A stretch of 64,000 nt of DNA from Streptomyces pluripotens (lineage in GTDB: Bacteria > Actinomycetota > Actinomycetes > Streptomycetales > Streptomycetaceae). The position numbers were made by a program, and so were the translations under genes. The DNA is taken from the NCBI RefSeq assembly GCF_000802245.2, contig NZ_CP021080.1, positions 4,154,001 to 4,218,000 of the forward strand, in the 5' to 3' direction. Numbering within the stretch: position 1 is the first letter of the stretch; each line of letters starts with the position of its first letter. This document shows, in pieces, positions 334 through 39,990 of this stretch. The notes below the pieces were generated by a model. The model ran no database searches, was not told the origin of the DNA, and saw only the letters and a program-made list of their open reading frames with translations.

Positions 334-348
334 CTGACGCTATGTCAG
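334..348. promoter_or_regulatory. Regulon operator 1 (CTGAC-N5-GTCAG)
   Basis: ctgacgctatgtcag, upstream of the acyl-CoA synthetase at 248. One of 11 copies in the window; operator function is inferred from symmetry and position. Confidence 0.75.
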
Positions 349-357
349 GTTACTGAA

Positions 358-372
358 CTGACGCGCTGTCAG
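358..372. promoter_or_regulatory. Regulon operator 2
   Basis: ctgacgcgctgtcag, 24 bp centre-to-centre from operator 1 and in the same upstream region of the acyl-CoA synthetase. Confidence 0.75.
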
Positions 373-402
373 GAACCGGTCGAACGGCAAAGTTGCACAA
401 GG

Positions 403-1581
403 CTACGACAGCCTCTTCGCCACCGCCTTGGCTATCTTCCGGGCGTCGAGGGCCATCTCCCGGAGCATTCCGCTGATCGGATTGGTGAACCCGGTGAAGT
501 ACAGGCCGGGTGCCTGTGCGGGGGTGTGGCCGCCGTGCACCACCGGTCTGCCGCGCTCGTCCAGCGCGCCGAGATGCCCGACCAACCCCTCCAACGCCCT
601 CACGTAGCCGGTGGCGGCGATCACCCCGTCCGGCGAGATGTGGCTACCGTCGGCCAGGACCACCTTCCCGTCCTCGAACGCCTCTACGGCGGCCACGATC
701 TCCACCTTCCCCTTGCGTACGGCGTCGATCAGGCCGACGTCCTGGACCGGGATGGCGCCCTGCCGCACCCTGCTGTACAGACCGGTGTCCGGACGGGGCA
801 GCCCGTGGGCGGACAGGTCCGGGGTGCTGAGCCGTGCCATCGGCCCGGCCAGTCGGTCCACGAGTTTCACCGGTAGCCGCCGGCCCAGCACGCCCGAGTA
901 CTGGGCCGCCCAGCCGAGGGTCGACCGGCGCAGGATGTGCGGAGCCGTGCGGACCGCCAGTCGTACCCGCTTCGCTCCGCCTTCCGTCAGGTCGACGGCG
1001 ATCTCGGCGCCGGTGTTGCCGCTGCCGACGACGAGCACGTCCTGGCCGGCGTACGGTGCGGCGTTGCGGTAGTCACTGGCGTGCCGGAACTCCCCGCCGT
1101 ACCCGTCCCGTCCGGGCCAGTCGGGCACGCGGGGGGTGTGGTTGTAGCCGGTGGCGACGACGACCGCGCTGCCGGTCAGCTCCCGGCCGCCGGAGGCGTG
1201 CAGCAGCCAGCCCGTACCGTCCTTGGTCCGCTCGACGCGATGGACCTCCACACCGGTGACGATCTCCAGTTCGTGGTGTTCGGCGTAGTTCTCCAGATAC
1301 CGCACCACGTTGTCCCGGGATACCCAGCGCCCGAACCGTCGGGGTATCGCGAGGCCCGGCAGGGCGGACAGCCGCCGGGTGGTGTGCAGGTGGAGCCGGT
1401 CGTAGTGGCGGCGCCAGGAGGCGCCCACGTGGTCGGCCTTCTCCAGGACCACGGCCCGTATGCCCCGGGCCCGCAGGGCGTATGCGGCGGCCAGGCCGCC
1501 CGGACCGGCGCCGATGACGTAGACCGGCCGGTCGGCGGGGGTTGCGGAGAGGTGCGCGGGGGTGGGACGGGAGACTGCCAT
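403..1581 (-). CDS. Flavin-containing monooxygenase / FAD-NAD(P)-binding oxidoreductase
   Basis: A 392-residue protein with an N-terminal FAD Rossmann motif (VIGAGPGG, Gly24-Gly29) and a second nucleotide-binding motif (VVGSGNTGAEIA) about half-way along, the arrangement of FMO/YUCCA-type and Baeyer-Villiger-like monooxygenases. A FRHASDY segment just before the second motif resembles the FMO signature region. It probably uses NADPH and O2 to oxygenate a small molecule; the substrate is unknown. The ATG at 1581 was chosen because residues upstream are not family-like; another ATG at 1599 in the same frame is equally possible, and neither has a strong ribosome binding site. It lies upstream of, and reads towards, the acyl-CoA synthetase. 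Confidence 0.85.
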   Translation of the reverse strand: MAVSRPTPAHLSATPADRPVYVIGAGPGGLAAAYALRARGIRAVVLEKADHVGASWRRHYDRLHLHTTRRLSALPGLAIPRRFGRWVSRDNVVRYLENYAEHHELEIVTGVEVHRVERTKDGTGWLLHASGGRELTGSAVVVATGYNHTPRVPDWPGRDGYGGEFRHASDYRNAAPYAGQDVLVVGSGNTGAEIAVDLTEGGAKRVRLAVRTAPHILRRSTLGWAAQYSGVLGRRLPVKLVDRLAGPMARLSTPDLSAHGLPRPDTGLYSRVRQGAIPVQDVGLIDAVRKGKVEIVAAVEAFEDGKVVLADGSHISPDGVIAATGYVRALEGLVGHLGALDERGRPVVHGGHTPAQAPGLYFTGFTNPISGMLREMALDARKIAKAVAKRLS

Positions 1582-1730
1582 GAGCGGGAGCGTAACCATC
1601 CATACGCTTGATGGGTCTCGGTCAAGACTGGAATTGGTTGCGGATTGATCACGACTGTGCGCGAAGCGCCCGGCTGCCCGGGCTCGGCGTGCGGCCCCGG
1701 CAGCCGTCCTGGGCGAGCGGTCCCCGGGTC

Positions 1731-3350: not shown

Positions 3351-3365
3351 CTGACGTACCGTCAG
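3351..3365. promoter_or_regulatory. Regulon operator 3
   Basis: ctgacgtaccgtcag ends only 3 nt before the ATG of the DoxX-like gene at 3369, so bound repressor would cover the transcription and translation start region. Confidence 0.8.
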
Positions 3366-3368: not shown

Positions 3369-3818
3369 ATGGACTCGATATGGCTGGACGGTCCCGAGTG
3401 GCTGGCGGTGCTGCGTGTCGGGCTCGGCCTGTGGTGGTTGGAGAGCTGGCGGCACAAGGACAAGAAGGCGTGGTTCGGCGGGAGCGGCATCGCCTGGGCG
3501 GCGGACGTCGCGGCGAAACACCGGTGGGCCCCGGTCCGGGCGGGTTTCGATGCGGTGGTCGCACCGCGCCCGAAGCTCATGGCGTACGTCGTGGCCCACG
3601 CCGAACTGGCCCTCGGTCTTGGCCTGGTCCTCGGCTTCCTGACCCCGGTGGCCTTGCTCGGCGGCCTGCTCCTCAACGCGGTCTACTTCGTCCTCATGAT
3701 CCACGACTGGGCGGAGCAGGGGCAGAACTCGATGATGGCGCTGATCTCCCTGGCCGGCTTCTTCGGCATGGCGTGGCAGACCTGGTCGCTGGACGCGTGG
3801 TTGGGGTGGTTCCGATGA
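3369..3818 (+). CDS. DoxX-like small integral membrane protein
   Basis: A 149-residue hydrophobic protein with about four membrane segments, including ELALGLGLVLGFLTPVALLG and LISLAGFFGMAWQT. The pattern fits the DoxX/DUF4267-like membrane family, whose biochemical role is mostly unknown. The start is fixed by the ATG just after the regulon operator; no leader long enough for a ribosome binding site remains, so the transcript may be nearly leaderless. The stop overlaps the start of a 24-codon micro-ORF (ATGA), which itself overlaps the DUF35 gene, so the three reading frames are probably translationally coupled. Confidence 0.75.
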   Translation: MDSIWLDGPEWLAVLRVGLGLWWLESWRHKDKKAWFGGSGIAWAADVAAKHRWAPVRAGFDAVVAPRPKLMAYVVAHAELALGLGLVLGFLTPVALLGGLLLNAVYFVLMIHDWAEQGQNSMMALISLAGFFGMAWQTWSLDAWLGWFR

Positions 3819-5076: not shown

Positions 5077-6249
5077 TCACTCCCGCCCCAGTACCACTGT
5101 CCCCGACGAGCAGAACCAGCCCCCGGTGCCGGACGCCACTCCCAGCCGGGGCAAGCTCCCGTCCCGCGCCCGCACTTGGCGGTCCTCCGCCTCGCCGCGC
5201 AGTTGCCGTACCGCCTCCACGAGCAGGAAGAGGCCGCGCATTCCCGGGTGTTGGGCCGACAGGCCGCCGCCGTCCGTGTTGACCGGCAGATCTCCGCCCC
5301 GCACCATCAGGCGTCCCTTCTCCACGAATGCCCCGCCCTCGCCCTTCGCGCAGAAGCCGAGGTCTTCCAGGGTCACCAGGGTCATGTAGGTGAAGGCGTC
5401 GTAGACCTCGGCGAAGTCGATCTCGGTCGGGCGGACACCGGCGCGCTCGAAGGCCAGGCGACCGCTCACCGCAGCCGGTGAGAGGGTGAAGTCCGGCCAC
5501 TCGGACATGGCCGCGTGGGAGACGTGCTCGCCGGTGCCCAGGAGCCATACGGGCGACGTACGGCAGTCCCGGACGTACTCCTCGGCTGCCAGGAGGACGG
5601 CCGCACCGCCGTCGGAGCGGATGCAGCAGTGCAGCTTGGTGAAGGGGTCGGCGATCATCGGGCCGGACAGGACGTCGTCGACCGTGACCGGGGCGCGGAA
5701 CATCGCCTCCGGGTTCAGGGCCGCGTTGGCCCGTGCCTGCACCGCGACCTGGGCCAGCTGTTCGACTGTCGTGCCGTGTTCGATCATGTGGCGGCGGGCC
5801 GCCATGGCGTACTTGGCGATGAGCGTGTGGCCGTAGGGGACCTCGAACTGGAGAGGGCCCCGAGCGCCGAAGGAGAGGTTTCCCGTTCTGCGACCGGCTT
5901 TGATGTCGGCCCTCGCCGTCGAGCCGTAGGCCAGCAGTACCGCGTTCGCGTGGCCCGCCGCGATCGCGTCCGCCGCGTGCGCCGCCATGACCTCCCAGGT
6001 CGCTCCGCCGACGGAGGTGGAGTCCACCCAGGTGGGGTGCAGGCCGAGGTACTCGGCGACTTCCACCGGCGCCAGTGTGCCCAGGCCTGCTGAGGCGAAG
6101 CCGTCCACCCGGGTGCGGTCCAGGCCGGCGTCCGCCAGTGCGCGGCGGGCGGCCTGGGCGTGCAGCGTGTACGCGGTGGCGTCGTCCACGCGGCCGCAGT
6201 CGGAGAGGGCCACGCCGACCACGGCGACTTTCCTGCTCCCTGACGTCAT
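5077..6249 (-). CDS. Thiolase-like (SCPx/Ltp) enzyme lacking the nucleophilic Cys
   Basis: A 390-residue protein of the lipid-transfer-protein thiolase family: N-terminal VAVVGVALSDCGR, central HCCIRSDGGAAVLLA, and C-terminal AEVYDAFTYM and GGGLSAQHPGMRG. Where classical thiolases have the catalytic Cys (about 17 residues before the helix-end Gly), this protein has SVGGATWE, so it is unlikely to be thiolytic. Ltp2-type proteins with DUF35 partners perform retro-aldol cleavage of branched 3-hydroxyacyl-CoAs, and I infer a similar role. The ATG at 6249 is 4 nt from regulon operator 4. The probable partner is the DUF35 protein at 3889. Confidence 0.85.
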   Translation of the reverse strand: MTSGSRKVAVVGVALSDCGRVDDATAYTLHAQAARRALADAGLDRTRVDGFASAGLGTLAPVEVAEYLGLHPTWVDSTSVGGATWEVMAAHAADAIAAGHANAVLLAYGSTARADIKAGRRTGNLSFGARGPLQFEVPYGHTLIAKYAMAARRHMIEHGTTVEQLAQVAVQARANAALNPEAMFRAPVTVDDVLSGPMIADPFTKLHCCIRSDGGAAVLLAAEEYVRDCRTSPVWLLGTGEHVSHAAMSEWPDFTLSPAAVSGRLAFERAGVRPTEIDFAEVYDAFTYMTLVTLEDLGFCAKGEGGAFVEKGRLMVRGGDLPVNTDGGGLSAQHPGMRGLFLLVEAVRQLRGEAEDRQVRARDGSLPRLGVASGTGGWFCSSGTVVLGRE

Positions 6250-6253: not shown

Positions 6254-6268
6254 CTGACGGTACATCAG
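6254..6268. promoter_or_regulatory. Regulon operator 4
   Basis: ctgacggtacatcag, immediately upstream of the thiolase-like gene on the minus strand (4 nt from its ATG). Confidence 0.75.
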
Positions 6269-6334: not shown

Positions 6335-6349
6335 ATGACGGACCGTCAG
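6335..6349. promoter_or_regulatory. Regulon operator 5
   Basis: atgacggaccgtcag (first base deviates from consensus; inner 13 bp palindromic), 20 bp upstream of the acyl-CoA dehydrogenase ATG. Operators 4 and 5 serve the two divergent units separately. Confidence 0.75.
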
Positions 6350-6369: not shown

Positions 6370-7554
6370 ATGGACACGCGCCTCACCGCCGAACAGGACG
6401 AGATCCGCCGCACCCTGAGAGGGCTGCTGCGCAAGCGCTGCGGCTCCCCGGAACTGCGGACCGCCCTCGACAGCCCGGCCGGGTACGACCCCCTCCTGTG
6501 GACCGCTCTGGCCGACCGGCTCGGCCTGCCGGGGCTCGCCCTCCCCGAGCGGTACGGCGGCGTCGGCTGCACGATCACCGACCTGGCTCTCGCCTGCGAG
6601 GAGACGGGCCGTTGCCTCGCCCCGTCCCCGCTGCTGGCCACCTCCGTCCTCACCGCCCCGTTGGTCCTCGACCTGGGAACGCAGACGCAGCGCGCCGAGT
6701 TGCTGCCCCGCCTGGCCGCGGGAACCCTCACCGCCACCCTCGCCGTTTCCGGGCCGTCCCTCGCCACGGCTCTGGCCCTGACCAGCGCGAATGCCGGGTA
6801 CAGCGCGGGAGGCGGGCGGGCCGGTGGTGTGCAGGCCAGGCACCGTGCGGACGGCTGGCGGCTGTACGGGCAGGTCGACCAGGTGCTGGACGGGCACAGT
6901 GCGGGACTGCTGCTCGTCGCCGCGCACACCGGCGGGTTCGCGCGGTCCCGGACGCTGTTGTTCCTGGTGCAGGCAAACGCTGAGGGGCTGGTCCGGACCC
7001 GACAGACCGCCCTCGACGCCACCCGGCCACAGGGCCGGGTGCAACTGCGTGAGGTGCGCGCGGAGTTGCTTGGGGAGGAGCACACCGAGGTGCTGCCCGC
7101 GCTTGCCGCTCTCGGGGACCGTGTCGCCGCTGTGCTCGCCGCCGAGGCCGTCGGGGCGGCCGACCGGGTGTTGGAGCAGACCGTGGAGTACGTCGGGCGG
7201 CGCGAGCAGTTCGGGCGGCGCATCGGGTCCTTCCAGGCGGTGAAGCATCAGTTGGCGGACGTCTATGTGGCCGTCCAGGCGGCGCGGTCGGCCTCCTGTT
7301 ACGCGGCCTGGGCGACAGCGCAGGGGGAACGGGTGGGCGGGCTCGCGCTCGCGCAAGCCCTGGAGGCGCTACGGTGCGCTGCCGCCGAAGGTGTCCAGCT
7401 GCACGGCGGCATCGGGTTCACCTGGGAGCATGACGTCCAGCTGTACTTCAAACGGGCGGCCGGGGACGAATTGTTGTTCGGGCCGGTGCACCGGCTGCGG
7501 GACCGGGCCGCCGAGACGGCCGGGCTGTTCGGGGGCGGGGAGGTGGCGGTCTGA
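6370..7554 (+). CDS. Acyl-CoA dehydrogenase
   Basis: A 394-residue FAD flavoprotein of the acyl-CoA dehydrogenase family that would introduce the alpha-beta double bond into an acyl-CoA. Features in order: N-terminal helical domain (TAEQDEIRRTLRGLL), LGLPGLALPERYGGVG, a middle beta domain, and the C-terminal signature REQFGRRIGSFQAVKHQLAD with GVQLHGGIGFTWEHDVQLYFKRA. Sequence identity to a specific FadE/ChsE subgroup cannot be judged here. ATG follows operator 5 by 20 bp. The last codon overlaps the next gene (TGATG), so the Ddn-like protein is probably translated with it. Confidence 0.92.
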   Translation: MDTRLTAEQDEIRRTLRGLLRKRCGSPELRTALDSPAGYDPLLWTALADRLGLPGLALPERYGGVGCTITDLALACEETGRCLAPSPLLATSVLTAPLVLDLGTQTQRAELLPRLAAGTLTATLAVSGPSLATALALTSANAGYSAGGGRAGGVQARHRADGWRLYGQVDQVLDGHSAGLLLVAAHTGGFARSRTLLFLVQANAEGLVRTRQTALDATRPQGRVQLREVRAELLGEEHTEVLPALAALGDRVAAVLAAEAVGAADRVLEQTVEYVGRREQFGRRIGSFQAVKHQLADVYVAVQAARSASCYAAWATAQGERVGGLALAQALEALRCAAAEGVQLHGGIGFTWEHDVQLYFKRAAGDELLFGPVHRLRDRAAETAGLFGGGEVAV

Positions 7555-8097: not shown

Positions 8098-8727
8098 TTA
8101 CGGGCTGGGGGGTTGCATCGCCGAGCGGGCGAGGCGAATGAGGCCGGCTCGGATCCGTTGCTCGCCGAGTTCCGGTAGGAGCGCGGCCACGTGTTCGGCG
8201 GCCAGCGCGGCGAGCAGGGCGTGAGCGGTGTGTTCGGGGTCGGGTGTGGTGCCCAGCAGGATCGCTGTGTGGCGGTGCCAGAACCGGTAGGCCCCGATCC
8301 GGTACCGGGCGCCGACTGCGGCGGTCTCCGAGGTGCGGATGAGAGCCAGGTTCTCCAGCAGGTAGTCGACATAGGCGTCGACGAACGCGGTGAGCCGCTC
8401 CTCGGCGGCGGCTCCAGGGCCAAGCGGTGGCGGTCCATACAGGATCGCCTCTTGCAGTACGCGTTCTCGGGTGTCAAGGAGTGCGCCGGCCAGCCCGGAC
8501 TTATCGCCGAAGCGGCGGTACAGAGTGCCCTTGCCGACACCGGCGGCCTCGGCCACCTGGTCCATGGAGACCGCTTCCACCCCGCGCTCGGCGAACAGCC
8601 GCGCGGCTGCGTCCAGTACGGCGGCACGGTTGCGTGCCGAGCGTGCTTGTTCCTTTGGCGGCGGGGTCCGCAGGAGTTCCAGCAGCATTGCAGAATCGGA
8701 CTGCGGTCCGTTATTGTCGTGAGCCAC
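8098..8727 (-). CDS. TetR-family repressor, divergent from rhodanese
   Basis: A 209-residue regulator. The N-terminal TetR helix-turn-helix is clear: RNRAAVLDAAARLFAERG, then SMDQVAEAAGVGKGTLYRRF. The C-terminal ligand-binding domain is variable and its ligand unknown. The GTG at 8727 was chosen over an internal ATG 39 bp downstream because it allows a complete N-terminus and lies next to the palindrome cggactatagtccg; either is possible. It is divergent from the rhodanese gene, with two related palindromes in or near the shared promoter, so autoregulation and control of the rhodanese are likely. Confidence 0.9.
   Translation of the reverse strand: MAHDNNGPQSDSAMLLELLRTPPPKEQARSARNRAAVLDAAARLFAERGVEAVSMDQVAEAAGVGKGTLYRRFGDKSGLAGALLDTRERVLQEAILYGPPPLGPGAAAEERLTAFVDAYVDYLLENLALIRTSETAAVGARYRIGAYRFWHRHTAILLGTTPDPEHTAHALLAALAAEHVAALLPELGEQRIRAGLIRLARSAMQPPSP
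8697..8710. promoter_or_regulatory. Second TetR palindrome CGGAC-N4-GTCCG
   Basis: cggactgcggtccg lies inside the first codons of the TetR gene (GTG start), 34 bp from the intergenic copy. It shares 5-bp arms with it. Confidence 0.55.
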
Positions 8728-8730
8728 AAG

Positions 8731-8744
8731 CGGACTATAGTCCG
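8731..8744. promoter_or_regulatory. TetR operator candidate in TetR/rhodanese promoter
   Basis: cggactatagtccg, a perfect 14-bp palindrome, sits between the divergent start codons at 8727 and 8764. It probably binds the adjacent TetR protein and overlaps both promoters. Confidence 0.7.
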
Positions 8745-8763
8745 ATTCTTGAAAGGCAGGGGC

Positions 8764-9090
8764 ATGACCGCACTCATCACACGAGACGAGCTGAAGGCAG
8801 CCATAGACGCGGGCAGCGTTACCGTCGTCGACGCTCTGGGTGGCGAGTACTACGCCAAGCAGCACCTTCCTGGCGCACTCGAACTGGTCCTGGCCGACGT
8901 GGAGGCCCAGGCGTCCGCCCTACTCCCCGACCGCGACGCAGCGGTCGTCACTTACTGCTCCAACCCGGCGTGCCCCAACAGTGGACAGGTCGCCAGCCGG
9001 CTCACCGCTCTCGGATACACCAACGTCCGCAAGTACCGTGAGGGCATCCAAGACTGGGTGGAGGCGGGCCTTCCCACCGAGTCCGCCTGA
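8764..9090 (+). CDS. Single-domain rhodanese-like sulfurtransferase
   Basis: A 108-residue rhodanese domain: VTVVDALGGEYYAKQHLPGA (the usual cdc25/rhodanese N-terminal motif) and the active-site loop YCSNPACPNSGQVASRL, with a catalytic Cys candidate in YCSNPAC. It probably transfers sulfane sulfur from thiosulfate or persulfides. ATG at 8764 follows a purine-rich stretch (gaaaggcaggggc). It is divergent from a TetR regulator with a palindrome between them, suggesting induction by a reactive sulfur or other small molecule; the inducer is not evident. A terminator-like hairpin follows. Confidence 0.9.
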   Translation: MTALITRDELKAAIDAGSVTVVDALGGEYYAKQHLPGALELVLADVEAQASALLPDRDAAVVTYCSNPACPNSGQVASRLTALGYTNVRKYREGIQDWVEAGLPTESA

Positions 9091-11388: not shown

Positions 11389-11436
11389 GGTCACCGGCTA
11401 CGTCACCGGCCACTACACCGGCTATGTCGTCGGCTA
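11389..11436. repeat. Four tandem 12-bp repeats after TetR gene
   Basis: Units ggtcaccggcta, cgtcaccggcca, ctacaccggcta and tgtcgtcggcta follow one another directly. They end at the TetR stop codon, so the stop lies in the last unit. They might be a decayed repetitive C-terminal extension or a 3' regulatory element. Confidence 0.75.
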
Positions 11437-12081
11437 CTTCAGCGGTTTCTTGCCAGTCACACCCAGGTGTACCAACAGCGCCAGATTCGGCTTGAGTTCG
11501 GCCTGTTTCACACCCCAGGAGGAAAAGCCCTTCTGGTGTCCGGCGACCGCCGCGAGCATCGCGACCAGGGACCCGGCCACCGCCGCCGGGTTCACGTCCT
11601 TGTCGACCCGGCCCTTGGACTGTAGTTCTGCGATGGAGTCGGCGAGGGAGTTGTTCACCGAGTTCAGGATCTTCATCCTGATCTTGTAGAACCGTTTGTC
11701 CCCTTCGGCCGCGCCAAGGTCGACCACGCGTAGGATCGCGTCGTTCCTGCGCCAGAAGTCCAGGAACCCGTTCACCAATTCCTGCGCCGTCTGCCACCCG
11801 GACTTCCCGGTCCAGGTGCGTCCTTCGAGGAGTTCGGCCAATCCGGCGCCCTCGGCAGCCATTTGTTCGGCGATCTCCAGGACGGCGCCCTCGACGTCCG
11901 GGAAGTACTGGTAGAAGGTCGCGGGTGAAGTGCCCGCCTTCCGGGCGACATCGATGACCTTGACGTCCCGGTAAGGGGAGGAGCTGAGCATCTCGCTGAG
12001 GCAGTCGAGCAGCTTCTGCCGGGTCGCCTGCCCACGCCGGCCGGCCACGCGGCCGTCGACGGTACGCACTTGTCCTGTCAT
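11434..12081 (-). CDS. TetR-family regulator divergent from kbpA
   Basis: A 215-residue TetR protein: GQATRQKLLDCLSEMLSSS then RDVKVIDVARKAGTSPATFYQYFPD is the DNA-binding domain, followed by a helical effector domain with hydrophobic GSLVAMLAAVAGHQ. By position next to kbpA-afsK it corresponds to S. coelicolor SCO4421 as I remember the map. ATG at 12081. The 120 bp between it and kbpA contain no copy of the CTGAC-N5-GTCAG motif, so it is not an obvious candidate for the catabolic regulator, although that cannot be excluded. Confidence 0.9.
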   Translation of the reverse strand: MTGQVRTVDGRVAGRRGQATRQKLLDCLSEMLSSSPYRDVKVIDVARKAGTSPATFYQYFPDVEGAVLEIAEQMAAEGAGLAELLEGRTWTGKSGWQTAQELVNGFLDFWRRNDAILRVVDLGAAEGDKRFYKIRMKILNSVNNSLADSIAELQSKGRVDKDVNPAAVAGSLVAMLAAVAGHQKGFSSWGVKQAELKPNLALLVHLGVTGKKPLK

Positions 12082-12203
12082 GCCGTCAGCTTACCGAGGG
12101 GGGATCGGAGCGCGATTCGGCCGACTGCAAATGGGGTGCACGGGCGCTCTGAGGGTGGTGTGCCTGGTCTGCGGGGTGCGCGTGACCCGGTTACTTTGGC
12201 GAC

Positions 12204-12947
12204 ATGGCCGAAAACAGGGCATCCCTGAAGGAAGAGGCGTACGGGGAGGGCGTCCCCTGCTGGGTGGACGCGCAGCTTTCCGACGTCGAGGCGGGCAAGC
12301 GGTTCTACGGTGAGCTCTTCGGGTGGACCTTCTCCGAGCCGGGCCAGGCCTACGGTTCCTCGGTGTGGGCCAGGCTGGACGGGGACCGGGTCGCCGCACT
12401 CTCCCCCAAGGTGGACGGCCGGATGCCCACCGTCTGGACGGTGTACTTCGCCACCCCGGACGCCGGGGCGTTGGGCAGGCGGATCGCCGGGGCCGGCGGA
12501 CAGCTGGTGGTGGCCCCCTTCCCGGTGGGTGACCTGGGGACGGCCGGGCTCGCCGCCGACCCCGACGGCGCGGTGTTCGGCCTGTGGCAGGCAGGCACCC
12601 ACCCCGGCTTCGGCCGTCGTCACGCCCCCGGCACCTTCGTCTGGGCCGAGCTGTACACCCGGGACGTCGCCGCAGCCAACACCTTCTACGGCGGTCTCTT
12701 CCACGAAGCCCTGTTCGGCGCCGACGCCGAACCCGATTTCGGTCGTGCGGACGTCGGCGAGGTCTTCCCGGCTGAGATGCCCTCGCACTTCCTCACCCAC
12801 TTCCGGGCCGAGGACCTGGACGACATCCTGGGGGCCGTGCAGCGGCTGGGCGGGCGGGTGCAGGTGCCACCCTTTGAGACGTCGTACGGGCGAGTGGCCG
12901 TCGTCACCGACAATCAGGGGGCGTCGTTCGCACTGCTGCAGCGTTGA
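12204..12947 (+). CDS. kbpA: KbpA, AfsK-binding VOC-fold protein
   Basis: A 247-residue protein made of two tandem vicinal-oxygen-chelate (glyoxalase-like) modules: CWVDAQLSDVEAGKRFYGELFGW (about residues 18-130) and FVWAELYTRDVAAANTFYGGLF (about 140-247). Size and position directly upstream of afsK on the same strand match KbpA of S. coelicolor, which binds unphosphorylated AfsK and restrains its autophosphorylation. Identification rests on locus and domain, not on a computed alignment. ATG at 12204. A strong stem-loop separates it from afsK, so the two may be transcribed separately. Confidence 0.85.
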   Translation: MAENRASLKEEAYGEGVPCWVDAQLSDVEAGKRFYGELFGWTFSEPGQAYGSSVWARLDGDRVAALSPKVDGRMPTVWTVYFATPDAGALGRRIAGAGGQLVVAPFPVGDLGTAGLAADPDGAVFGLWQAGTHPGFGRRHAPGTFVWAELYTRDVAAANTFYGGLFHEALFGADAEPDFGRADVGEVFPAEMPSHFLTHFRAEDLDDILGAVQRLGGRVQVPPFETSYGRVAVVTDNQGASFALLQR

Positions 12948-13117: not shown

Positions 13118-15490
13118 GTGGTGGATCAGCTGACGCAGCACGATCCGCGGCGGATCGGGCCGTTCGAGGTGCTGGGCCGGCTGGGGGCCGGCGGCATGGG
13201 GCTGGTCTATCTCGCGCGCTCGGCGTCCGGCCGGCGCGTGGCGATCAAGACGGTGCGTACTGAGCTGGCCGAGGACCAGCTGTTCCGGGTCCGCTTCACC
13301 CGTGAGGTGGAGGCGGCCCGCGCGGTCTCCGGGTTCTACACGGCAGCCGTGGTGGACGCCGACCCGCGGGCCGCCGTGCCCTGGCTCGCGACCGCCTACG
13401 TCCCCGCACCCTCCCTTGAGGAGATAGTGAACGACTGCGGACCGCTCCCGGCCCAGGCTGTGCGCTGGCTCGCGGCGGGCGTCGCCGAGGCCCTGCAATC
13501 CATCCACGGCGCCGGACTGGTTCACCGCGACCTCAAGCCCTCCAACGTACTCGTGGTCGAGGACGGCCCCCGGGTGATCGACTTCGGTATCGCCTCCGGT
13601 GTGTCGAACACTCGTTTGACGATGACGAACGTCGCCGTCGGGACTCCCGCCTACATGTCTCCCGAGCAGGCCAAGGACTCCCGCAGCGTCACCGGCGCCA
13701 GCGATGTCTTCTCCCTGGGATCCACCCTGGTCTTCGCGGCCACCGGTCACCCGCCCTTCCACGGGGCCAACCCGGTCGAGACCGTCTTCATGCTGCTCCG
13801 CGAGGGTCCGGACCTCACCGGCTTGCCCGACGAGCTGCGTCCGCTCATCGAGGCGTGCATGCAGATGGAGGCCCCCGCCCGCCCCACCCCGGCCGACCTC
13901 CAGACCCAGCTCGCCCCGCACCTCTTCGGTTCCGGCACCGACGACAGCGGCACCGCCTCCGCCTGGCTGCCGGAGAAGGCGTTCGTCCTCATCGAGTCCC
14001 GCCGCGGCGGGCGTCCCGCCCTCAAGCCTGCCCCCACCGCGTCCGGTCCGCGCCCTGGTGGCCGCGCGCCTGTGCCCCCGCCACCCTCCTACGACCCCCC
14101 GGTCCGTGCCCCCGCACCCGTGGGCGCCGCTGACGCCGGCCCGGTCCGGCTGGCCGGCGCCCGGGTACCCATCGGCCCCGGCCCCCGGGTCGCCGACGCC
14201 CGTGCCGCCGCCGTCAAGGCACCCCCTCCGGAGGCCGGTCTGGTCGCCAGCTGGTCCCGGGCGCGCACCGGAGTGGCCGGTGTCGACCCCGCGGTGCCGT
14301 CGTCCCCCAAGGCCTCGGCTTCGCCCGAACCGGGTGGATCCTCGTCCGCGGAGGCGGCGAACGGTTGGCGGCCCTGGCGCTTCCGCATGTCCAACGACGT
14401 CTGGGGCACCCCCCACGTCGACGGCGACCTCGTCTACGTCACCTCATTCGAGGTGCACGCGCTGGACGTGGCCACCGGCCGTCGCCGCTTCAAGACCCGG
14501 GACGTCGCCTGGTCCATGGCGGTGGCCGACGGCCGTGTCCACGCCTCCGACGGCCCCACCCTGTTCGCCCTGGACGCCCGGGAGGGCACCGACCTGTGGC
14601 GGGTGTCCACGGACGCCTGGGTGTACTCCCTCCAGGCCGGCCACGGCACGGTCGTCACCGGAACCCGCGGCGGCGGCGTCCAGGCCTGGGAGGCCACGGG
14701 CGGGCAGAAGCTGTGGGAGATCACCGGCTGCCAGACCGACTTCGAGGCCCCGGAGGCCGGCCCCCTCGTCCACGACGGCACGGTCTATGTCTGGCAGGAC
14801 GCCCGGCTGCGCGCGCTGGAGGCCCGCACCGGTGAGGAGCGCTGGTCGTACCCCATCGGCGACGCGACTTCCTGTGGCGGCGTGCCCATCCGCCTCAGTC
14901 CGGCCTCCGACGGCCAGGTCTACGTCTCCGCCGGCACCCGCGTCATCGCCATCGAGGCGGCGAGCGGCATGGTCCGCTGGCACTTCGAAGCCCCAGCGGT
15001 CTTTCTCAGCCCCCCGGCCTTCGCCTCCGGCCCGGCCGTCACCGGCGGCGGTGTCTACCTGGCCGACTACCTCGGCACGGTCTACGCCCTCGACGCCGCC
15101 GACGGCCGGGACCGCTGGCGCATCGCGACCGAGTCCCGTTCTTCCGTCGAGCCGGTTCTGGTGGCTGCCGGACACGTCCATGTCGGCAGCGGCAAGGGCC
15201 TCTACACCCTGGACGCGGTCACCGGCACCCCCAAGTGGCGTTTCCAGGCGGGCGGCGACGTCGTGGGGTCGCCGTCGGTGGCTGAGGGCCGTATCCACTT
15301 CGGCTCCACCGATCATCTGCTGTACACCCTGAAGGCTGATGACGGACGACTGCGTTGGAAGCTCGCCACCGGCGGTGAGATCACCGGTTCCCCGGTGGTC
15401 GAGGACGGCGTGGTGTACGCGTGCAGCAAGGACCGCTGTGTGTACGCGCTGGACGCGGAGAAGGGCACGGGGACGGCACGTACCACGTGA
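13118..15490 (+). CDS. afsK: AfsK serine/threonine protein kinase with PQQ-like repeats
   Basis: A 790-residue membrane-associated Hanks-type kinase. Kinase domain, residues 1-275: glycine loop GAGGMG (23-28), Lys44, HRDLKPSN (136-143), DFG (155-157). Thr168 in the activation loop sits at the residue reported as the AfsK autophosphorylation site in S. coelicolor. A Pro/Ala linker leads to a C-terminal beta-propeller of PQQ-type repeats ([21 protein letters not shown] and similar). AfsK phosphorylates AfsR, which then activates afsS. GTG at 13118 follows ggggagg and gives the known N-terminus [20 protein letters not shown]. Confidence 0.96.
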
Positions 15491-15771
15491 CGGCCGTCGC
15501 ACCGGTTGCACGGAAGGGCTTCGGACGGCGGCCGTCCCACGGCTGACGCTACCCCCGGTGCCGAGTGCCCGCCACGTGGTGGACGCGGACGGTCACGACT
15601 GTGGTGTGTCCATGGATGACGGGTCGCGGGGCGATTTCCCGATGGCCACCGTGCTCACCGACGGCGCGTCCGGGGGAAGCGCATCGCCGGTTGCGGACTG
15701 CCGTCCTGGCCTGCCCACCGGATGGACGAACGGGAAGAGGGGCTTTTGGTGGCGGACCGGCCGGCCGGCGG

Positions 15772-16548
15772 TCACCGGATGCGGAACTCCCCGCCATGCC
15801 GCCTCGCGAACAGCTCCGCCTGTTGCCCCGGGGGCAGGTTGCCCAGCGCGATCAGGTGCGGCGCCTGTGCGAACGCCTGCGCACGCGCCGCCTCCTTGGC
15901 CGCCCACAACGCCCGCACGGTCCCCTGCACTCCCTCCGGCGGGTAGCTGGCGATCACTGCGGCGCACCGCACGGCAGCATCCAACGCCAGTCCTTTCTCG
16001 GTGATTTCGGAGACCAGCCCGATGGTGTGCGCCCGTCGGGCCGAGATCCGCTCGGCCGTCCCCATGAGCATCATCCGTGCCGCCTCCCCGTAGGGCATCC
16101 GGTGTGCCATCAGCATGGACTCGTACGCGCTCACCATGCCGTACGTCGTGTGCGGGTCGAAGAAGGAAGCGGTGGTATCGGCGACGATGAACTCGCTCTC
16201 GCCCAGCAGGTAGAACGCGCCGCCGCAGGCCATCCCTTGCACCGCGACCACCACCGGCTTCCACAGGTCGTTCGCCTTCGGCCCCATGCCCAGCAGCGGA
16301 TCGTCCTGCATGTACGGCGACGAGGGCTGGGGCACGACGGCGTCCCGGTCGATCCCGGTGCAGAACGCCCGCTCCCCGGCTCCGGTGAGCACGACGGCAC
16401 GCACCGAGTCCTCGAACCGCAACCTGCGCCATACCCCGGTGAGTTCGCGAACCATCTCCAGATCGACGGCGTTGAGCCGCTCGGGCCGGTTCAGGGTGAC
16501 GACGGCCACCCCGGTGTCCGCGCCGACGTCGAGGCGGACGGTGTTCAC
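15772..16548 (-). CDS. Enoyl-CoA hydratase/isomerase-family protein
   Basis: A 258-residue crotonase-fold protein: VAVVTLNRPERLNAVDLEMV, the oxyanion-hole segments RAFCTGIDRD and VQGMACGGAFYLLGESEFIVAD. It would hydrate an enoyl-CoA. The second catalytic acid region (SFFDPHTTYGMV) departs from the usual E-x-x-x-G pattern, so a hydrolase-type or specialised hydratase role is possible. GTG at 16548 overlaps the DUF35 stop (GTGA), so it is the third gene of a thiolase-DUF35-hydratase operon controlled by operators 6/7. Confidence 0.88.
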   Translation of the reverse strand: MNTVRLDVGADTGVAVVTLNRPERLNAVDLEMVRELTGVWRRLRFEDSVRAVVLTGAGERAFCTGIDRDAVVPQPSSPYMQDDPLLGMGPKANDLWKPVVVAVQGMACGGAFYLLGESEFIVADTTASFFDPHTTYGMVSAYESMLMAHRMPYGEAARMMLMGTAERISARRAHTIGLVSEITEKGLALDAAVRCAAVIASYPPEGVQGTVRALWAAKEAARAQAFAQAPHLIALGNLPPGQQAELFARRHGGEFRIR

Positions 16549-16952: not shown

Positions 16953-16959
16953 GTCGGTC

Positions 16960-18114: not shown

Positions 18115-18138
18115 GGTGTAGCCGCCCCCTCACATGTG

Positions 18139-18153: not shown

Positions 18154-18165
18154 CCTAGCGCTAAT

Positions 18166-20233: not shown

Positions 20234-20248
20234 GTGCAGGGTCCGACC

Positions 20249-23420: not shown

Positions 23421-23435
23421 CTGACGGTCCGTCAG
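23421..23435. promoter_or_regulatory. Regulon operator 8
   Basis: ctgacggtccgtcag, 21 bp before the amidohydrolase ATG, with the inner arms extended (perfect except for the central base). It lies in the afsR/amidohydrolase divergent region. Confidence 0.8.
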
Positions 23436-23456
23436 ATCGGCGCTACCGTGGAGGGC

Positions 23457-25638: not shown

Positions 25639-26409
25639 ATGGGCAAGCTGGACGGGCGGGTCGTCATCGTCACCGGGGCGGCGCGCGGACAGGGCGAACA
25701 GGAGGCGCGGCTGTTCCGGGCGGAAGGCGCGCAGGTGATCGTGGCGGACGTGCTGGACGACCAGGGCGAGGCGCTGGCCAAGGAGATAGGGGCTGCCTAC
25801 GTCCACCTCGACGTCGGCACGGAGGAGGGGTGGCGGCAGGCCGTCGCGGCCACCAAGCGGGCGTACGGGCGCATCGACGGGCTGGTCAACAATGCGGGCA
25901 TCCTGCGCTTCAACGCCCTCGTGGACACTCCACTGGACGAGTTCATGCAGGTGGTACAGGTCAACCAGGTGGGCTGCTTCCTGGGGATGAAGGCCGTGGC
26001 ACCGGAGATGACCGACGGCGGCACGATCGTGAACACCGCCTCCTACACGGCGCTGACCGGCATGGCGGCCGTGGGCACGTACGCCGCCACCAAGCACGCC
26101 ATCCTCGGGCTGACCCGGGTCGCCGCGCTGGAGCTGGCCGGCCGGCGGATACGGGTCAACGCCATCTGCCCGGGCGCCATCGACACCCCGATGTCCAATC
26201 CGGCCCGGCTGGATCCGGACGCCGATCCGGAGGAGACCGGTCGGGCCCTGGACGACCTGTACCGCAGGCTCGTCCCGCTTGGGCGGGTCGGGCGACCGGA
26301 GGAGGTGGCGCAGCTCGCCCTCTTCCTCACCTCGGGCGACTCCTCGTACATCACCGGGCAGCCGTTCGTGATCGACGGGGGCTGGCTGGCCGGAGTCAGC
26401 ATTATCTGA
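25639..26409 (+). CDS. Short-chain dehydrogenase/reductase
   Basis: A 256-residue classical SDR: cofactor motif TGAARGQG, NNAG, catalytic Ser in NTASYTALTG, YAATK with Tyr and Lys, and C-terminal PFVIDGGWLAG. The acidic VADV after the second strand suggests NAD preference. It would oxidise a secondary alcohol such as a 3-hydroxyacyl-CoA or ring hydroxyl. ATG at 25639 has gaggag 4-9 bp upstream. Its TGA lies within operator 9. Confidence 0.93.
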   Translation: MGKLDGRVVIVTGAARGQGEQEARLFRAEGAQVIVADVLDDQGEALAKEIGAAYVHLDVGTEEGWRQAVAATKRAYGRIDGLVNNAGILRFNALVDTPLDEFMQVVQVNQVGCFLGMKAVAPEMTDGGTIVNTASYTALTGMAAVGTYAATKHAILGLTRVAALELAGRRIRVNAICPGAIDTPMSNPARLDPDADPEETGRALDDLYRRLVPLGRVGRPEEVAQLALFLTSGDSSYITGQPFVIDGGWLAGVSII

Positions 26410-26420
26410 CGCACCATCAG
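26406..26420. promoter_or_regulatory. Regulon operator 9
   Basis: ctgacgcaccatcag overlaps the stop codon of the SDR and precedes the next LLM gene. Confidence 0.75.
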
Positions 26421-26468: not shown

Positions 26469-26483
26469 CTGACGATACGTCAG
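26469..26483. promoter_or_regulatory. Regulon operator 10
   Basis: ctgacgatacgtcag lies 63 bp (about six helical turns) downstream of operator 9, centre to centre, and 25 bp before the TTG start of the LLM gene. Confidence 0.8.
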
Positions 26484-26508: not shown

Positions 26509-27627
26509 TTGGAATTCGGGCTCTTTGTACAGGGATACGTGGGCAAGCGCGCCGAGACCGACCCGCTCGCCGAGCACAAGGCACTGATGGAGGAGACCGA
26601 GTACGTCATCCAGGCGGACAAGTCGGGCTTCAAGTACGCCTGGGCCTCCGAGCACCACTTCCTGGAACAGTACTCACACCTGTCCGCCAACGACGTCTTC
26701 CTCGGGTACCTGGCGCACGCGACCGAGCGGATCCACCTGGGCTCCGGGATCTTCAATCCGCTCGCCCAGGTCAACCACCCGGTGAAGGTCGCCGAGAAGG
26801 TCGCCATGCTCGACCACCTCACCGAGGGCCGCTTCGAGTTCGGTAGCGGGCGGGGTGCGGGCTCGCACGAGATCCTCGGCTTCCTGCCCGGCATCACCGA
26901 CATGAACCACACCAAGGAGATCTGGGAGGAGACGATCGCCGAGTTCCCCCGGATGTGGCTCCAGGACGAGTACCCCGGATTCCAGGGCAAGCACTGGCAG
27001 CTGCCACCGCGCAAGATTCTGCCGAAGCCGTACGGGAAGTCCCACCCGGCGATGTGGTACGCCGCCGGATCACCGCCTTCCTACGCCATGGCTGCCAGGA
27101 AGGGCCTGGGCGTGCTCGGCTTCAGCATCCAGAAGGTCTCGGACATGGAGTGGGTGCTGGAGCAGTACAAGACGGCGATCGTGGACGCGGAGCCGGTGGG
27201 GGACTTCGTCAACGACAACGTGATGGTGACGACCACGGCCATCTGCGCACCCACGCACGAGGAGGCGATCCGGACCGCGGTCGCGGGCGGGTTGCACTAT
27301 CTGCCGTCGCTGGTCTTCCGGTACCACGACACGTTCCCCCGCCCGGAGGGTTTCCCGGTGTGGCCGGAGACGCTGCCGGAGTACACGCCCGAGTTCGTGG
27401 AACTGCTCATCGAGGAGGAACTGCTGATCTGTGGCGACCCGGACGAGGTGCTGCGCCAGTGCAAGCGGTGGGAGCAGGCGGGCGCCGATCAGCTGAGCTT
27501 CGGGCTGCCGGTGGGGGTGCCGAAGGAGGAAACACTGCGGACGATCCGGCTCATCGGGGAGCACGTCATCCCGAAGATCGACACGGATCCCGTGCACCGG
27601 ACGTCCAGGTTCCGGGCGGCCGTGTGA
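26509..27627 (+). CDS. LLM-class F420-type oxidoreductase (second), TTG start
   Basis: A 372-residue luciferase-like protein. EFGLFVQGYVGK, YAWASEHHFLEQYSHLSAND, RIHLGSGIFNPLAQVNHPVKVAEKVAMLDHLTEGRFEFGSGRG are typical of bacterial LLM enzymes of the alkanal-monooxygenase branch. The start is a TTG at 26509; no better ATG/GTG is in frame nearby, so low translation is expected. It is preceded by operators 9 and 10. An amidohydrolase and an aldehyde dehydrogenase follow on the same strand. Confidence 0.9.
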   Translation: MEFGLFVQGYVGKRAETDPLAEHKALMEETEYVIQADKSGFKYAWASEHHFLEQYSHLSANDVFLGYLAHATERIHLGSGIFNPLAQVNHPVKVAEKVAMLDHLTEGRFEFGSGRGAGSHEILGFLPGITDMNHTKEIWEETIAEFPRMWLQDEYPGFQGKHWQLPPRKILPKPYGKSHPAMWYAAGSPPSYAMAARKGLGVLGFSIQKVSDMEWVLEQYKTAIVDAEPVGDFVNDNVMVTTTAICAPTHEEAIRTAVAGGLHYLPSLVFRYHDTFPRPEGFPVWPETLPEYTPEFVELLIEEELLICGDPDEVLRQCKRWEQAGADQLSFGLPVGVPKEETLRTIRLIGEHVIPKIDTDPVHRTSRFRAAV

Positions 27628-37641: not shown

Positions 37642-38030
37642 GGGTGAATTCTCTCCCGATGCAAGCCCAGCCATCGCGTGGCCATTGCGCCAGAATGAGA
37701 CGTGAAGTGGGCGCACCCGGATGGCGGTTGGGGAGCCGGCCGGGAGGTGTGCCAGGCGCCGCTCCGGCACCGGCCGCCGTCCGGCAGGACACCGCAGAGC
37801 CGACTCCTCCCGGACGGAGGTGAACTGCACACGGCAGCGGCGAGAGCGGCGGCGAGTGCCGTACGACCGGCCCACCACCGACGCCAACAGGGCCGATTCC
37901 GTACGGGGCCGAAGCGCTCATAGCTGTGCGGGAATGACCCCTCAGGGGCGAATTGCCCCCCTCAACGGACCGTTCCGTGTCGATTACAGTGCTTGCGTCG
38001 AACGGACGGACGGTGCCCTGAGGAGGACTG
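37642..38030. other. Intergenic region, no gene supported
   Basis: 389 bp between the divergent DUF2165 and ADP-ribosylglycohydrolase-like genes. The last 50 bp contain tacagt (a possible -10) and the ribosome binding site aggagga. No conserved small frame was recognised. Confidence 0.6.
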
Positions 38031-39143
38031 GTGGGTGCGACATCCGGCGCCGTCTGGGGCCGCGCCGAGCAACAGGACTTCCGCAGCAGGGTGCGCGGCA
38101 CCCTGCTCGGGGCCGCCGTGGGAGACGCGCTGGGCGGCCCGGCCGACCCGCTGTCCCTGGAGGAGATCCGGTCGGCCTACGGCCCCGAGGGCCTGCTCGA
38201 CCTGGCGTTCGGGCACGGGCGGCGCGGCACGGTCACCCATCACACCCAGCTCACCCTGTTCACCGTGGACGGACTGATCCGCGCCCAGGTCCGCCGCGAC
38301 ACCGGCGTCTGGCACCCGCCGACCGATCTGCACCGCGCGTATCTGCGCTGGGCGGCCACCCAGCGGGACTGGGGACCCGACGAGCGCCGCAAGGACGACG
38401 GATGGCTGGCCCGGGAGGAGTGGCTGTACGCCCGTCGTGACCCCACCCGGGCGCTGCTCGTCGGCTTCGGTGACGAGACCATGGGCACGCTGGAGGCTCC
38501 GAAGAACCCGGGGGAGATGGGACCGGAGGCCGTCGCCCGGTCCACGCCGTTCGGGCTGCTGGTCGGCTGGGAGCCGCAACTCGTCGCCCAACTGGCCGTC
38601 GAGTGCGCGGTCCAGACCCACGGGCACCCCATCGCCCAGCTGGCCGCGGGGGCGTACGCCGCGATCGTGCACGGCCTGGCCCGCGGGGACAGCCTGGACG
38701 GCGCGGTGCGGCGCGCCCTAGGCCTGCTCGCCGTCCGTCCCGGCCACCAGCCCGTCTCCGGCGCCCTCCAGCATGCCCTCGGTGCGGTGCGGCAGGGGAT
38801 GCCCGGCCCGGAGCGGGTGGAGGAACTGGCCGGGGACGGCACGGCGGACGGGCTGTTGGCAGCCTCCGTCTACTGCGCTCTGGTGGGGGAGGACATCCGG
38901 CACGGGCTGTGCCTGGCGGTGAACCAGAGCGGCCCTTCGGCCGCCGCCGGCACCCTCACCGGTGGCCTCCTGGGCGCGCTGCACGGCGAAACCGCCCTGC
39001 CGCCCGGCTGGCTAGCCGAGTTGGAGGGACGACCGACGATTCTCGAACTCGCCGACGACTTCGCGATGGAGATGACCCAGGGGCCCGCCCTGCACGGCCC
39101 CGCCGGCTCATCGCCGGGATGGCTGGCACGGTATCCGCGGTGA
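38031..39143 (+). CDS. ADP-ribosylglycohydrolase-fold protein with altered metal motifs
   Basis: A 370-residue DraG/ARH-family protein, recognised from GTLLGAAVGDALGGPAD near the N-terminus and repeated helical Ala/Gly/Leu segments. Active family members carry D-D-T-x-M/L and D-S-D-S/T-type magnesium ligands. Here the first reads THHTQLTLF and the second NQSGPSAAAGTLTGGLLGA, so the Asp ligands appear lost. It may bind ADP-ribosylated ligands without hydrolysis or use other residues. GTG at 38031 with gaggagga upstream. Confidence 0.85.
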   Translation: MGATSGAVWGRAEQQDFRSRVRGTLLGAAVGDALGGPADPLSLEEIRSAYGPEGLLDLAFGHGRRGTVTHHTQLTLFTVDGLIRAQVRRDTGVWHPPTDLHRAYLRWAATQRDWGPDERRKDDGWLAREEWLYARRDPTRALLVGFGDETMGTLEAPKNPGEMGPEAVARSTPFGLLVGWEPQLVAQLAVECAVQTHGHPIAQLAAGAYAAIVHGLARGDSLDGAVRRALGLLAVRPGHQPVSGALQHALGAVRQGMPGPERVEELAGDGTADGLLAASVYCALVGEDIRHGLCLAVNQSGPSAAAGTLTGGLLGALHGETALPPGWLAELEGRPTILELADDFAMEMTQGPALHGPAGSSPGWLARYPR

Positions 39144-39159
39144 GCGGTGCCTGTGCTGG

Positions 39160-39948
39160 TCAGCGCATCAGTTCCCCCGCGTTGACCAGCAGCGACTGGC
39201 CGGTGATGGCGCGTGCCCGGTCCGACGACAGGAACACCGCAGCGTCCGCCACATCCGCGTCGGTGGCCAGCTCCGGCAGCGCCATCCGCCCGGTCAGCCG
39301 TGCCAGCACCGCCGCCTCCGGCACCCCCTCGCTCTGCGCCGCGAACCGCACGTACGCCTGCACCGGCGGCCCCCACATCCAGCCCGGCAGCACACTGTTG
39401 ACCCGGATCCGGTACGGCCCCACCTCCCGCGCCAGCGCGTACATCGCGCTGGTGAGCGCCCCCTTCGAGGCGGCGTACGCGGCCTGCCGCACCTGCGAGG
39501 GCGCGGCGACGGCCGACTGCGTCCCGATGAACACCACCGCCCCGCCCCCGCCCGCCTTCAGCGCCGGCAGGCAGGCCCGCGTCATCCGCAGTGTCCCCAG
39601 CAGGTTCACGTCGATGACCGACCGCCAGACGGAGAAGTCCGCGTCTTCGACCCCGCCGAAGTAGGAGTCCCAGGCCGCCACCTGCACCACAGCGCCGACC
39701 GAGCCGAACCGCTCGCGTGCGAGCGCGGCCAGCTCCGTGCACTGCCCCTCGTCGGTGATGTCGGTCGCCCGGTACGCCGTGTGCGCGCCGTCCGGGTCGA
39801 TCCCGGCCGCACATTCGGCGAGGTACGCCTCGGTGCGCGCCCCGAGCACCGCGTTCCCGCCCTCCCGTACGACGGCCGCGGCCACCTGTCGGCCGAGCCC
39901 GGCCCCGACGCCCGAGACGACGACGGTCTTGCCGGTGAGCAGGGACAT
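39160..39948 (-). CDS. Short-chain dehydrogenase/reductase under the regulon operator
   Basis: A 262-residue SDR: SGVGAGLGRQVAAAV (TGxxxGxG-like), the Ser of FIGTQSAVAAP, YAASK, and C-terminal GQSLLVNAGELMR. The NNAG motif is altered (VVQVAAWDS). It would oxidise or reduce a hydroxyl/keto group of a pathway intermediate. ATG at 39948, 27 bp from operator 11. Divergent from the unknown dimeric-barrel-like gene. Confidence 0.9.
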   Translation of the reverse strand: MSLLTGKTVVVSGVGAGLGRQVAAAVVREGGNAVLGARTEAYLAECAAGIDPDGAHTAYRATDITDEGQCTELAALARERFGSVGAVVQVAAWDSYFGGVEDADFSVWRSVIDVNLLGTLRMTRACLPALKAGGGGAVVFIGTQSAVAAPSQVRQAAYAASKGALTSAMYALAREVGPYRIRVNSVLPGWMWGPPVQAYVRFAAQSEGVPEAAVLARLTGRMALPELATDADVADAAVFLSSDRARAITGQSLLVNAGELMR

Positions 39949-39975
39949 CGGTGCCTCCCGGGTCTGGCATTTTTC

Positions 39976-39990
39976 CTGACGGGGCGTCAG
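39976..39990. promoter_or_regulatory. Regulon operator 11
   Basis: ctgacggggcgtcag lies between the divergent SDR (start 39948) and the gene at 40027. It may control both. Confidence 0.8.

Follow-up and report, generated by a model that had tools for sequence, protein, structure and literature searches.

A putative palindromic operator and its probable TetR-family repressor beside afsK in Streptomyces pluripotens: a candidate regulon of acyl-CoA catabolism

Introduction

The TetR-type repressors KstR and KstR2 of mycobacteria and rhodococci, as described in the accessible parts of the sources, act through palindromic operators on large catabolic regulons. The TetR repressor SAV576 of Streptomyces avermitilis, according to the accessible part of its description, represses its own gene through a 15-bp palindrome, with one site lying over its own start codon (PMC3742746). 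Here, we analyze a stretch of the Streptomyces pluripotens genome of 64,000 nucleotides, hereafter the window (G000:C1:4154001-4218000; the genome, G000, spans 7.35 Mb), in which copies of the palindrome CTGAC-N5-GTCAG precede a set of catabolic genes, and a further copy overlaps the start of a TetR-family gene at 11434-12081, next to afsK. We put at about 0.8 the probability that a single TetR-family repressor, encoded by 11434-12081, uses these palindromes as its operators.

In Streptomyces coelicolor, afsK lies close to SCO4421, a gene that is up-regulated in sporulation, shows reduced expression in a whiA mutant and is active in spore chains, with its function in sporulation called unclear (PMC3878966). 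The accessible part of this paper, the only one found that names SCO4421, gives no regulon, operator or target for it. From its place beside afsK and its membership in the same family, 11434-12081 is the counterpart of SCO4421. A literature search, with subscription papers largely outside its reach, found no paper that describes this motif or regulon.

The palindrome and the operator consensus

The first-pass annotation of the window listed eleven 15-mers of the form CTGAC-N5-GTCAG, and all eleven are found where it placed them: eight are exact (334, 358, 3351, 18139, 18166, 23421, 26469 and 39976) and three carry one mismatch, namely, an ATCAG arm at 6254 and 26406 and a changed first base at 6335. 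The arm frequencies predict 0.067 exact copies, as against the eight found, and each of the 15 alternative arm spacings (0-4 and 6-15) yields at most one copy in the window. By gene calls, all eleven are intergenic and upstream of start codons, the nearest of which follows 11-126 bp after the centre of the palindrome; the copy at 26406 overlaps the final bases of a short-chain dehydrogenase (SDR) gene called as ending at 26409. Among seven named-species loci, the 6335 copy retains its deviating base in six and the 6254 copy in four.

A position matrix of 25 positions was derived from six Streptomyces clusters, that of the window among them, which together contributed 57 exact sites; none of the three deviating copies was used for training, nor was the 12075 site or any genome of family f14. 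In the window, the eleven sites score 20.8-32.4 and a twelfth, absent from the first-pass annotation, 15.7; no other place exceeds 4.8. Across 30 first-order random sequences, matches scoring at least 12 average 0.47 per 64 kb (top score 20.5), and the reversed window has no match at or above 12. The 20 kb ahead of the window hold four matrix sites, two exact and two inexact, for a cluster total of 16. The matrix adds outer A/T preferences to the arms, with A two bases 5' of CTGAC in 81 of the 114 symmetrised counts; the flanks are stronger in f14, where T directly precedes CTGAC and A directly follows GTCAG in 39 of 43 cases each. The putative operator consensus is about AnCTGACGnnnCGTCAGnT. 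The candidate operators of the window, and two just ahead of it, are:

334-348: CTGACGCTATGTCAG, upstream of a minus-strand gene of 745 aa with its start called at 248
358-372: CTGACGCGCTGTCAG, 24 bp from the 334 copy
3351-3365: CTGACGTACCGTCAG, upstream of the DoxX-like gene 3369-3818
6254-6268: one mismatch, divergent thiolase / acyl-CoA dehydrogenase promoter
6335-6349: one mismatch, same divergent promoter as 6254
12075-12089, minus strand: CTGACGGCATGACAG, the twelfth site, over the TetR start codon and adjoining the -10-like TAAGCT
18139-18153: CTGACAGTGTGTCAG, divergent thiolase / CoA ligase promoter
18166-18180: CTGACGGACAGTCAG, 27 bp from the 18139 copy, top matrix score of the window (32.4)
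23421-23435: upstream of the amidohydrolase gene at 23448 and of afsR (start called at 23089 or 23257)
26406-26420: one mismatch, upstream of the luciferase-like (LLM) oxidoreductase gene at 26509
26469-26483: CTGACGATACGTCAG, LLM oxidoreductase promoter shared with the 26406 copy
39976-39990: divergent promoter of the SDR gene 39160-39948 and the unknown-family gene 40027-40875
3698-3712 of locus L020, just upstream of the window: one mismatch, ahead of a ligase/amidohydrolase pair
9364-9378 of L020: one mismatch, between cyclase and SDR genes

Genome-wide, the palindrome is enriched, with 37 exact copies compared with 8 for a reversed control pattern; with up to one mismatch, the counts are 359 and 194, and for the extended form CTGACGNNNCGTCAG, 12 and 0. 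With up to two mismatches, the window shows no enrichment (34 copies found compared with a shuffle mean of 45), and the two-mismatch pattern was discarded as evidence for that reason. Ten of the 37 exact copies fall within 4,137,671-4,193,990, a stretch that starts 16 kb ahead of the window.

A TetR gene with a putative operator of its own

The proposed regulator and the regulatory genes around it are:

11434-12081, minus strand: TetR-family regulator, SCO4421 counterpart, proposed repressor (TetR_N and TetR_C_38, Pfam)
12204-12947, plus strand: kbpA-like gene with a glyoxalase fold (Pfam; named from its place upstream of afsK), divergent from the TetR gene
13118-15490, plus strand: afsK, Ser/Thr kinase with a PQQ-repeat domain (Pfam and place beside the afsR region)
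20249-23089, minus strand: afsR, BTAD regulator (near full-length match to AfsR chains 8k60 and 8jke)

The gene order in the window is TetR, kbpA-like gene, afsK. The TetR protein encoded by 11434-12081 combines an N-terminal helix-turn-helix domain (PF00440, 26.8 bits against a cut-off of 24) with a C-terminal TetR_C_38 domain (E 1.3e-71). A search of PDB sequences found no close homologue (best E 5.5e-07), and the AlphaFold2 model, which is helical with a mean predicted local distance difference test (pLDDT) score of 65 and with residues 1-51, the DNA-binding end, below 50, supports no claim. The ATG lies at 12081, and the protein start MTGQV is invariant across 20 aligned sequences.

It is over this start codon that the twelfth site lies, and it occupies the identical place in 137 of 137 Streptomyces loci (123 distinct promoters), these being the best-matching ones, with the TetR 85-100% identical. 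With its first two bases, the site completes the -10-like hexamer TAAGCT, which precedes the ATG by 7-12 nt; a leaderless TetR transcript is therefore likely. TAAGCT, the ATG and codons 2-4 (ACA GGA CAA) are invariant in all 123 distinct promoters. In the S. pluripotens genome, these codons account for 4.5% (ACA), 9.9% (GGA) and 9.7% (CAA) of their respective synonymous sets; the invariance of such rare codons at the TetR start therefore points to a constraint on DNA or RNA, beyond that on the protein. Twelve further Streptomyces loci were chosen for few copies of the motif (ten genomes) or a divergent TetR (two), and the self-operator is retained in eleven of these; in the twelfth, G037, one additional base separates the arms.

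Outside Streptomyces, 18 orthologue loci were taken from 24 such carriers. A matrix match lies within 300 bp upstream of the TetR orthologue in 16 of the 18 (11 of 13 without family f13), compared with a background of 42 of the 279 genes in those loci. The presumed recognition helix, TSPATFYQYF, is unchanged in 15 of these 18 orthologues and differs by one residue in the other three.

The first-pass annotation had proposed that one TetR-type protein represses the whole set and that neither TetR gene of the window obviously encodes it. The second statement is probably wrong, given the conserved self-operator of 11434-12081 and its co-occurrence with the motif (see below); of the first, the idea of a single regulon, with copies that behave as operators and a TetR as their likely binder, is supported, and repression would follow from the position of the copies.

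The other TetR gene of the window, 8098-8865, was rejected as a candidate: there is no operator nearby, its identity to proteins in ten other Streptomyces is at most 48%, and it has no match in two f14 genomes. The segment 8098-10088, which comprises this gene, a rhodanese-domain frame and a DDE transposase, is without counterpart in five relative clusters and looks like an insertion; a 74% identical relative of the 8098-8865 protein occurs in G256, a genome of the distant family f18.

Co-occurrence of the proposed regulator and the motif

A class-wide survey covered 394 genomes, with the best seven TetR candidates of each genome scored, and found matches to the TetR of 11434-12081 in at least 69, of which 40 are Streptomyces. 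Because all 61 of 61 Streptomyces genomes have the TetR, with one match per genome, its presence within the genus is uninformative. Outside the genus, with f13 and five 32-34% matches set aside, at least four copies of CTGACGNNNCGTCAG are present in 13 of 19 carriers compared with 4 of 325 non-carriers; if these five matches are counted as carriers, the fraction is 13 of 24. Family f13 was dropped because its sampled copies lie mostly between convergent genes or inside genes. In f14, copy numbers are 6-14 in the seven carriers, as against 0, 0, 0, 1 and 10 in the five non-carriers. Two of the four motif-rich non-carriers belong to families that hold carriers, and one, G208, is 68% complete.

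Candidate target genes

The principal candidate targets in the window are:

5077-6222, minus strand: thiolase-like protein, lipid-transfer-protein families among the matches (Pfam PF22691 on 5077-6249; NCBIfam matches all below cut-off)
6370-7554, plus strand: acyl-CoA dehydrogenase (Pfam)
16960-18114, minus strand: thiolase-like protein (Pfam), followed by 16545-16952 and then enoyl-CoA hydratase 15772-16560 (Pfam)
18205-19797, plus strand: AMP-binding acyl-CoA ligase (Pfam on the longer frame 17833-19797)
23448-24689, plus strand: Amidohydro_2 protein (homologues 64.5 and 64.9% identical behind operators in two f14 genomes)
26509-27627, plus strand: LLM oxidoreductase (start alternatively called at 26539)
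39160-39948, minus strand: SDR (NCBIfam NF005909 above cut-off)
40027-40875, plus strand: protein of unknown family (no NCBIfam match; no Pfam match for the longer frame 39781-40875)

Each of the 16 matrix matches of the window cluster falls between genes, and a called start follows within 11-147 bp downstream. The genes behind them encode an acyl-CoA dehydrogenase, thiolase-like proteins, AMP-binding ligases, amidohydrolases and the LLM oxidoreductase, as well as SDRs, a cyclase, a flavin reductase, a DoxX-like protein and others. A homologue of the 40027-40875 protein in f18 also adjoins an operator. In five motif-rich relatives, the 15 operator-bearing genes retain the site in 59 of 59 cases, compared with 0 of 39 for nine other genes, where the cases are not independent, as divergent genes share sites, the 59 leave out afsR (3/5), and the 39 leave out kbpA and the cyclase (operator-bearing gaps shared, 2/2 each). 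Within the 59, four of the five cases of the amidohydrolase at -16259 are a paralogue 56-57% identical, and one case of the ligase at -16346 is 55% identical. From the families of these targets, we propose that the regulated set is a multi-operon catabolic pathway of the acyl-CoA type.

The palindrome stands before similar catabolic genes elsewhere, as the first-pass annotation would lead one to expect, both in the S. pluripotens genome beyond the cluster and in two f14 genomes. We examined the 27 exact sites beyond the cluster. Nine score at least 21, and five of these precede, respectively, a gene for a ChsH2-type zinc ribbon with an apparent thiolase, a ChsH2/MaoC pair, a ligase with a hydratase, an LLM oxidoreductase and a ferredoxin-reductase-like protein. 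The other four comprise one before a radical SAM/B12 gene, one before an operon (by eye) of a VOC-like gene and a TetR gene, and two without a convincing target. The remaining 18 sites score 6-19; two precede LLM (L011) and MaoC-type (L010) genes, and the rest show no clear theme. The sequence CTGACTCCCAGTCAG recurs in this genome with similar flanks at L007 1501, L016 3016 and L019 2991 and is probably a repeat rather than an operator.

The f14 stretches, from G167 and G073, were picked around exact sites and the TetR gene. For all 35 matrix sites in them, a called gene begins no more than 350 bp downstream (26 in divergent gaps, 8 in tandem ones and 1 in an unassigned gap), and none is in a convergent gap or inside a gene. 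Among the 43 gene-site pairs in which the operator centre lies 14-60 bp before the start, this distance is 16-31 bp in 31; of these, 8 have a TAnnnT that starts at +9, and 6 have one that starts at +16. The 58 neighbouring proteins include 11 acyl-CoA dehydrogenases, 6 SDRs, 5 LLM oxidoreductases, 4 enoyl-CoA hydratases and 4 ChsH2-type proteins. An amidohydrolase, two acyl-CoA dehydrogenases, an SDR, an aldehyde dehydrogenase and an LLM oxidoreductase behind f14 operators are 58-65% identical to proteins of the window cluster, where some of the counterparts stand further down in their operons. At least one other actinobacterial family shares the regulator, the operator and the kinds of target.

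Proposed mechanism and rival explanations

A dimer of the TetR protein would bind about AnCTGACGnnnCGTCAGnT at or just upstream of each -10 region and block RNA polymerase. Its release from the DNA would be brought about by a ligand, perhaps a CoA thioester formed within the pathway, and through the copy over its start codon, the TetR would limit its own synthesis. The sites, their promoter positions and conservation, the self-operator and the co-occurrence are read directly from the sequence, whereas the DNA binding, repression, ligand and chemistry are inferred.

It is unlikely that a different regulator binds these operators and that the TetR gene at 11434 is merely one of its targets, even though an operator upstream of a regulator gene is no proof of self-binding. 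As the first-pass annotation had suggested, TetR genes with the motif upstream were listed: two of 58 score at least 12, namely, the TetR of the window (15.7) and the one at 1390066 (16.0), with the next at 6.5. For the latter, the one-mismatch site CTGACGGGCCGTCAC lies 117 bp ahead of the TetR_N match (L384 ~797-811; G000:C1:1389943-1389957). At 0.47 per 64 kb, the 30 kb of upstream sequence covered would hold about 0.2 matches by chance, and neither the relative clusters nor the orthologue loci examined, which cover parts of genomes, contain a match to the TetR at 1390066. Another contender, the TetR of locus L022, is encoded in the operon behind a site scoring 25.5. It was rejected: this TetR has no match (E 1e-20) in the motif-rich genomes G022 and G044 (20 and 31 extended copies) or G073 and G167 (14 each), and the site (~2963) is retained in 3 of 10 loci, namely, that of S. 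pluripotens itself and those of the two closest among the relatives read. The L022 operon of the VOC-like and TetR genes lies beside apparent succinate dehydrogenase genes. Any rival regulator would need to be co-inherited with the TetR of 11434 across families.

Some TetR-type proteins are activators, and the distance from operator to start varies in the window cluster, from 11 to 147 bp, as might be the case if the TetR bound these sites and activated the genes. Such activation is quite improbable, considering that many f14 operators are placed to overlap the -10 region or the spacer and that the self-operator overlaps both the -10-like TAAGCT and the start codon. There is a very slim chance that the palindromes do not serve as operators and are instead RNA hairpins, terminators or a dispersed repeat. 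This is what the copies in f13 suggest, where CTGACGNNNCGTCAG is present in 109-218 copies per genome and the TetR in five of five genomes (G072, G094, G111, G127 and G143). In G072, 57 copies were sampled; by codon-trained gene calls, 25 of them are inside genes, and of the 32 intergenic ones, 20 stand between convergent genes, both of which often take their stop codons from the TGA of the palindrome (loci L236-L290). These copies look like a 3'-end hairpin, possibly one found throughout the family, whose likeness to the operator would be due to coincidence or descent. In the window cluster and in f14, however, all matrix matches (16/16 and 35/35) are upstream of called genes, and the deviating copies are conserved. 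The least probable alternative, with hardly any chance of being correct, is a steroid regulon under a KstR- or KstR2-type repressor. Thiolases with lipid-transfer-type matches, ChsH2-type proteins and acyl-CoA dehydrogenases are present, enzymes that we take to resemble those of steroid side-chain degradation. However, the motif is unlike those of KstR and KstR2, and the steroid marker KshA_C, for which matches were found in three of the eight genomes tested, has none in the S. pluripotens genome and in four of the seven others, so that a steroid pathway is unsupported for this genome.

The assignment of the palindromes to the TetR of 11434-12081 has to be set against a number of observations that speak against it. 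The self-operator is imperfect in Streptomyces, where its right arm overlaps the conserved codons; in G037, which has ten copies of the motif, the arms of the self-site are one base wider apart. Two orthologue loci, in G081 and G090, are without a self-site; in G090, the orthologous TetR frame (L224 9376-9987) has one in-frame TGA, which may reflect a sequencing error or decay, and adjoins a similar catabolic block; an amidohydrolase gene near the frame has an operator site. Four self-sites in f18 are weak (12.4-14.7) and lie 234-270 bp from the aligned start, where the open frames are longer, and one of two distant paralogue loci also scores 13.6. The f13 palindromes lie mostly outside promoters, and 0-3 copies are found in 6 of 40 Streptomyces genomes, all of which still have the TetR, and in 6 of the 19 carriers outside the genus. 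Only five of the nine high-scoring sites beyond the cluster precede acyl-CoA or oxidoreductase genes, the 58 f14 neighbours come with no control tally, and the five relatives behind the 59 retained cases had also contributed to the matrix. The surveyed genomes are related, making the p values of co-occurrence too small, with seven scored candidates per genome carriers may be overlooked, and the listing of TetR genes read 520 bp upstream of 58 of the genome's 83 TetR_N genes. Finally, deletion of SCO4421 is without phenotype, as given in the accessible part of its description (PMC3878966).

The afsK-afsR setting

In S. coelicolor, according to the accessible part of PMC6988585, kbpA occupies the position that the glyoxalase-like gene has in the window, before afsK. 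The self-operator lies 122 bp before this kbpA-like gene, in the gap that it shares with the TetR gene, upstream of afsK, and an operator is also found in the gap before afsR, in S. pluripotens and in three of five relatives. A block of thiolase, ligase and hydratase genes separates afsK from afsR in S. pluripotens and its relatives (window 13118-23089). In the twelve Streptomyces loci chosen for few copies or a divergent TetR, no operator-bearing catabolic genes were detected in 19-20 kb (3 kb in G050), and the loci with few copies likewise showed no such block between the two genes. Conceivably, although this is a doubtful proposition, the TetR couples the state of acyl-CoA catabolism to antibiotic and developmental control, such that a pathway intermediate would alter the levels of KbpA, AfsK or AfsR along with those of its own pathway; such coupling would explain why the TetR gene and its operator stand beside afsK in Streptomyces that have the afsK region without the catabolic genes. 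With this analysis, a TetR beside one of the best-studied antibiotic-control loci gains a probable operator, a list of targets and a testable role, and the location of afsK and afsR inside a catabolic cluster, in this strain and its motif-rich relatives, may help explain the link between nutrient use and antibiotic control.

Comparison with known systems

The described systems differ from this one in the operator and in the setting. The operators of KstR and KstR2, as printed in the accessible parts of the sources, are TnnAACnnGTTnnA and AnCAAGnnCTTGnT, distinct from the consensus of the window, as the first-pass annotation had noted, so that these sites do not belong to the KstR type of operator. 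Moreover, the S. pluripotens genome lacks a KshA_C match, and its TetR stands beside afsK. The palindrome of SAV576 is CCRTACRVYGTATGS, and the targets named in the accessible part of the paper are its own gene and SAV575-SAV574 (PMC3742746). EthR and other solved TetR chains show weak sequence matches to the TetR of 11434-12081, in the case of EthR over about the first 115 residues. Taken together, the palindromes, the TetR and the genes behind them appear to constitute a TetR regulon of acyl-CoA catabolism that resembles the KstR and KstR2 systems in its manner of control, with a different operator and in a different setting, next to afsK.

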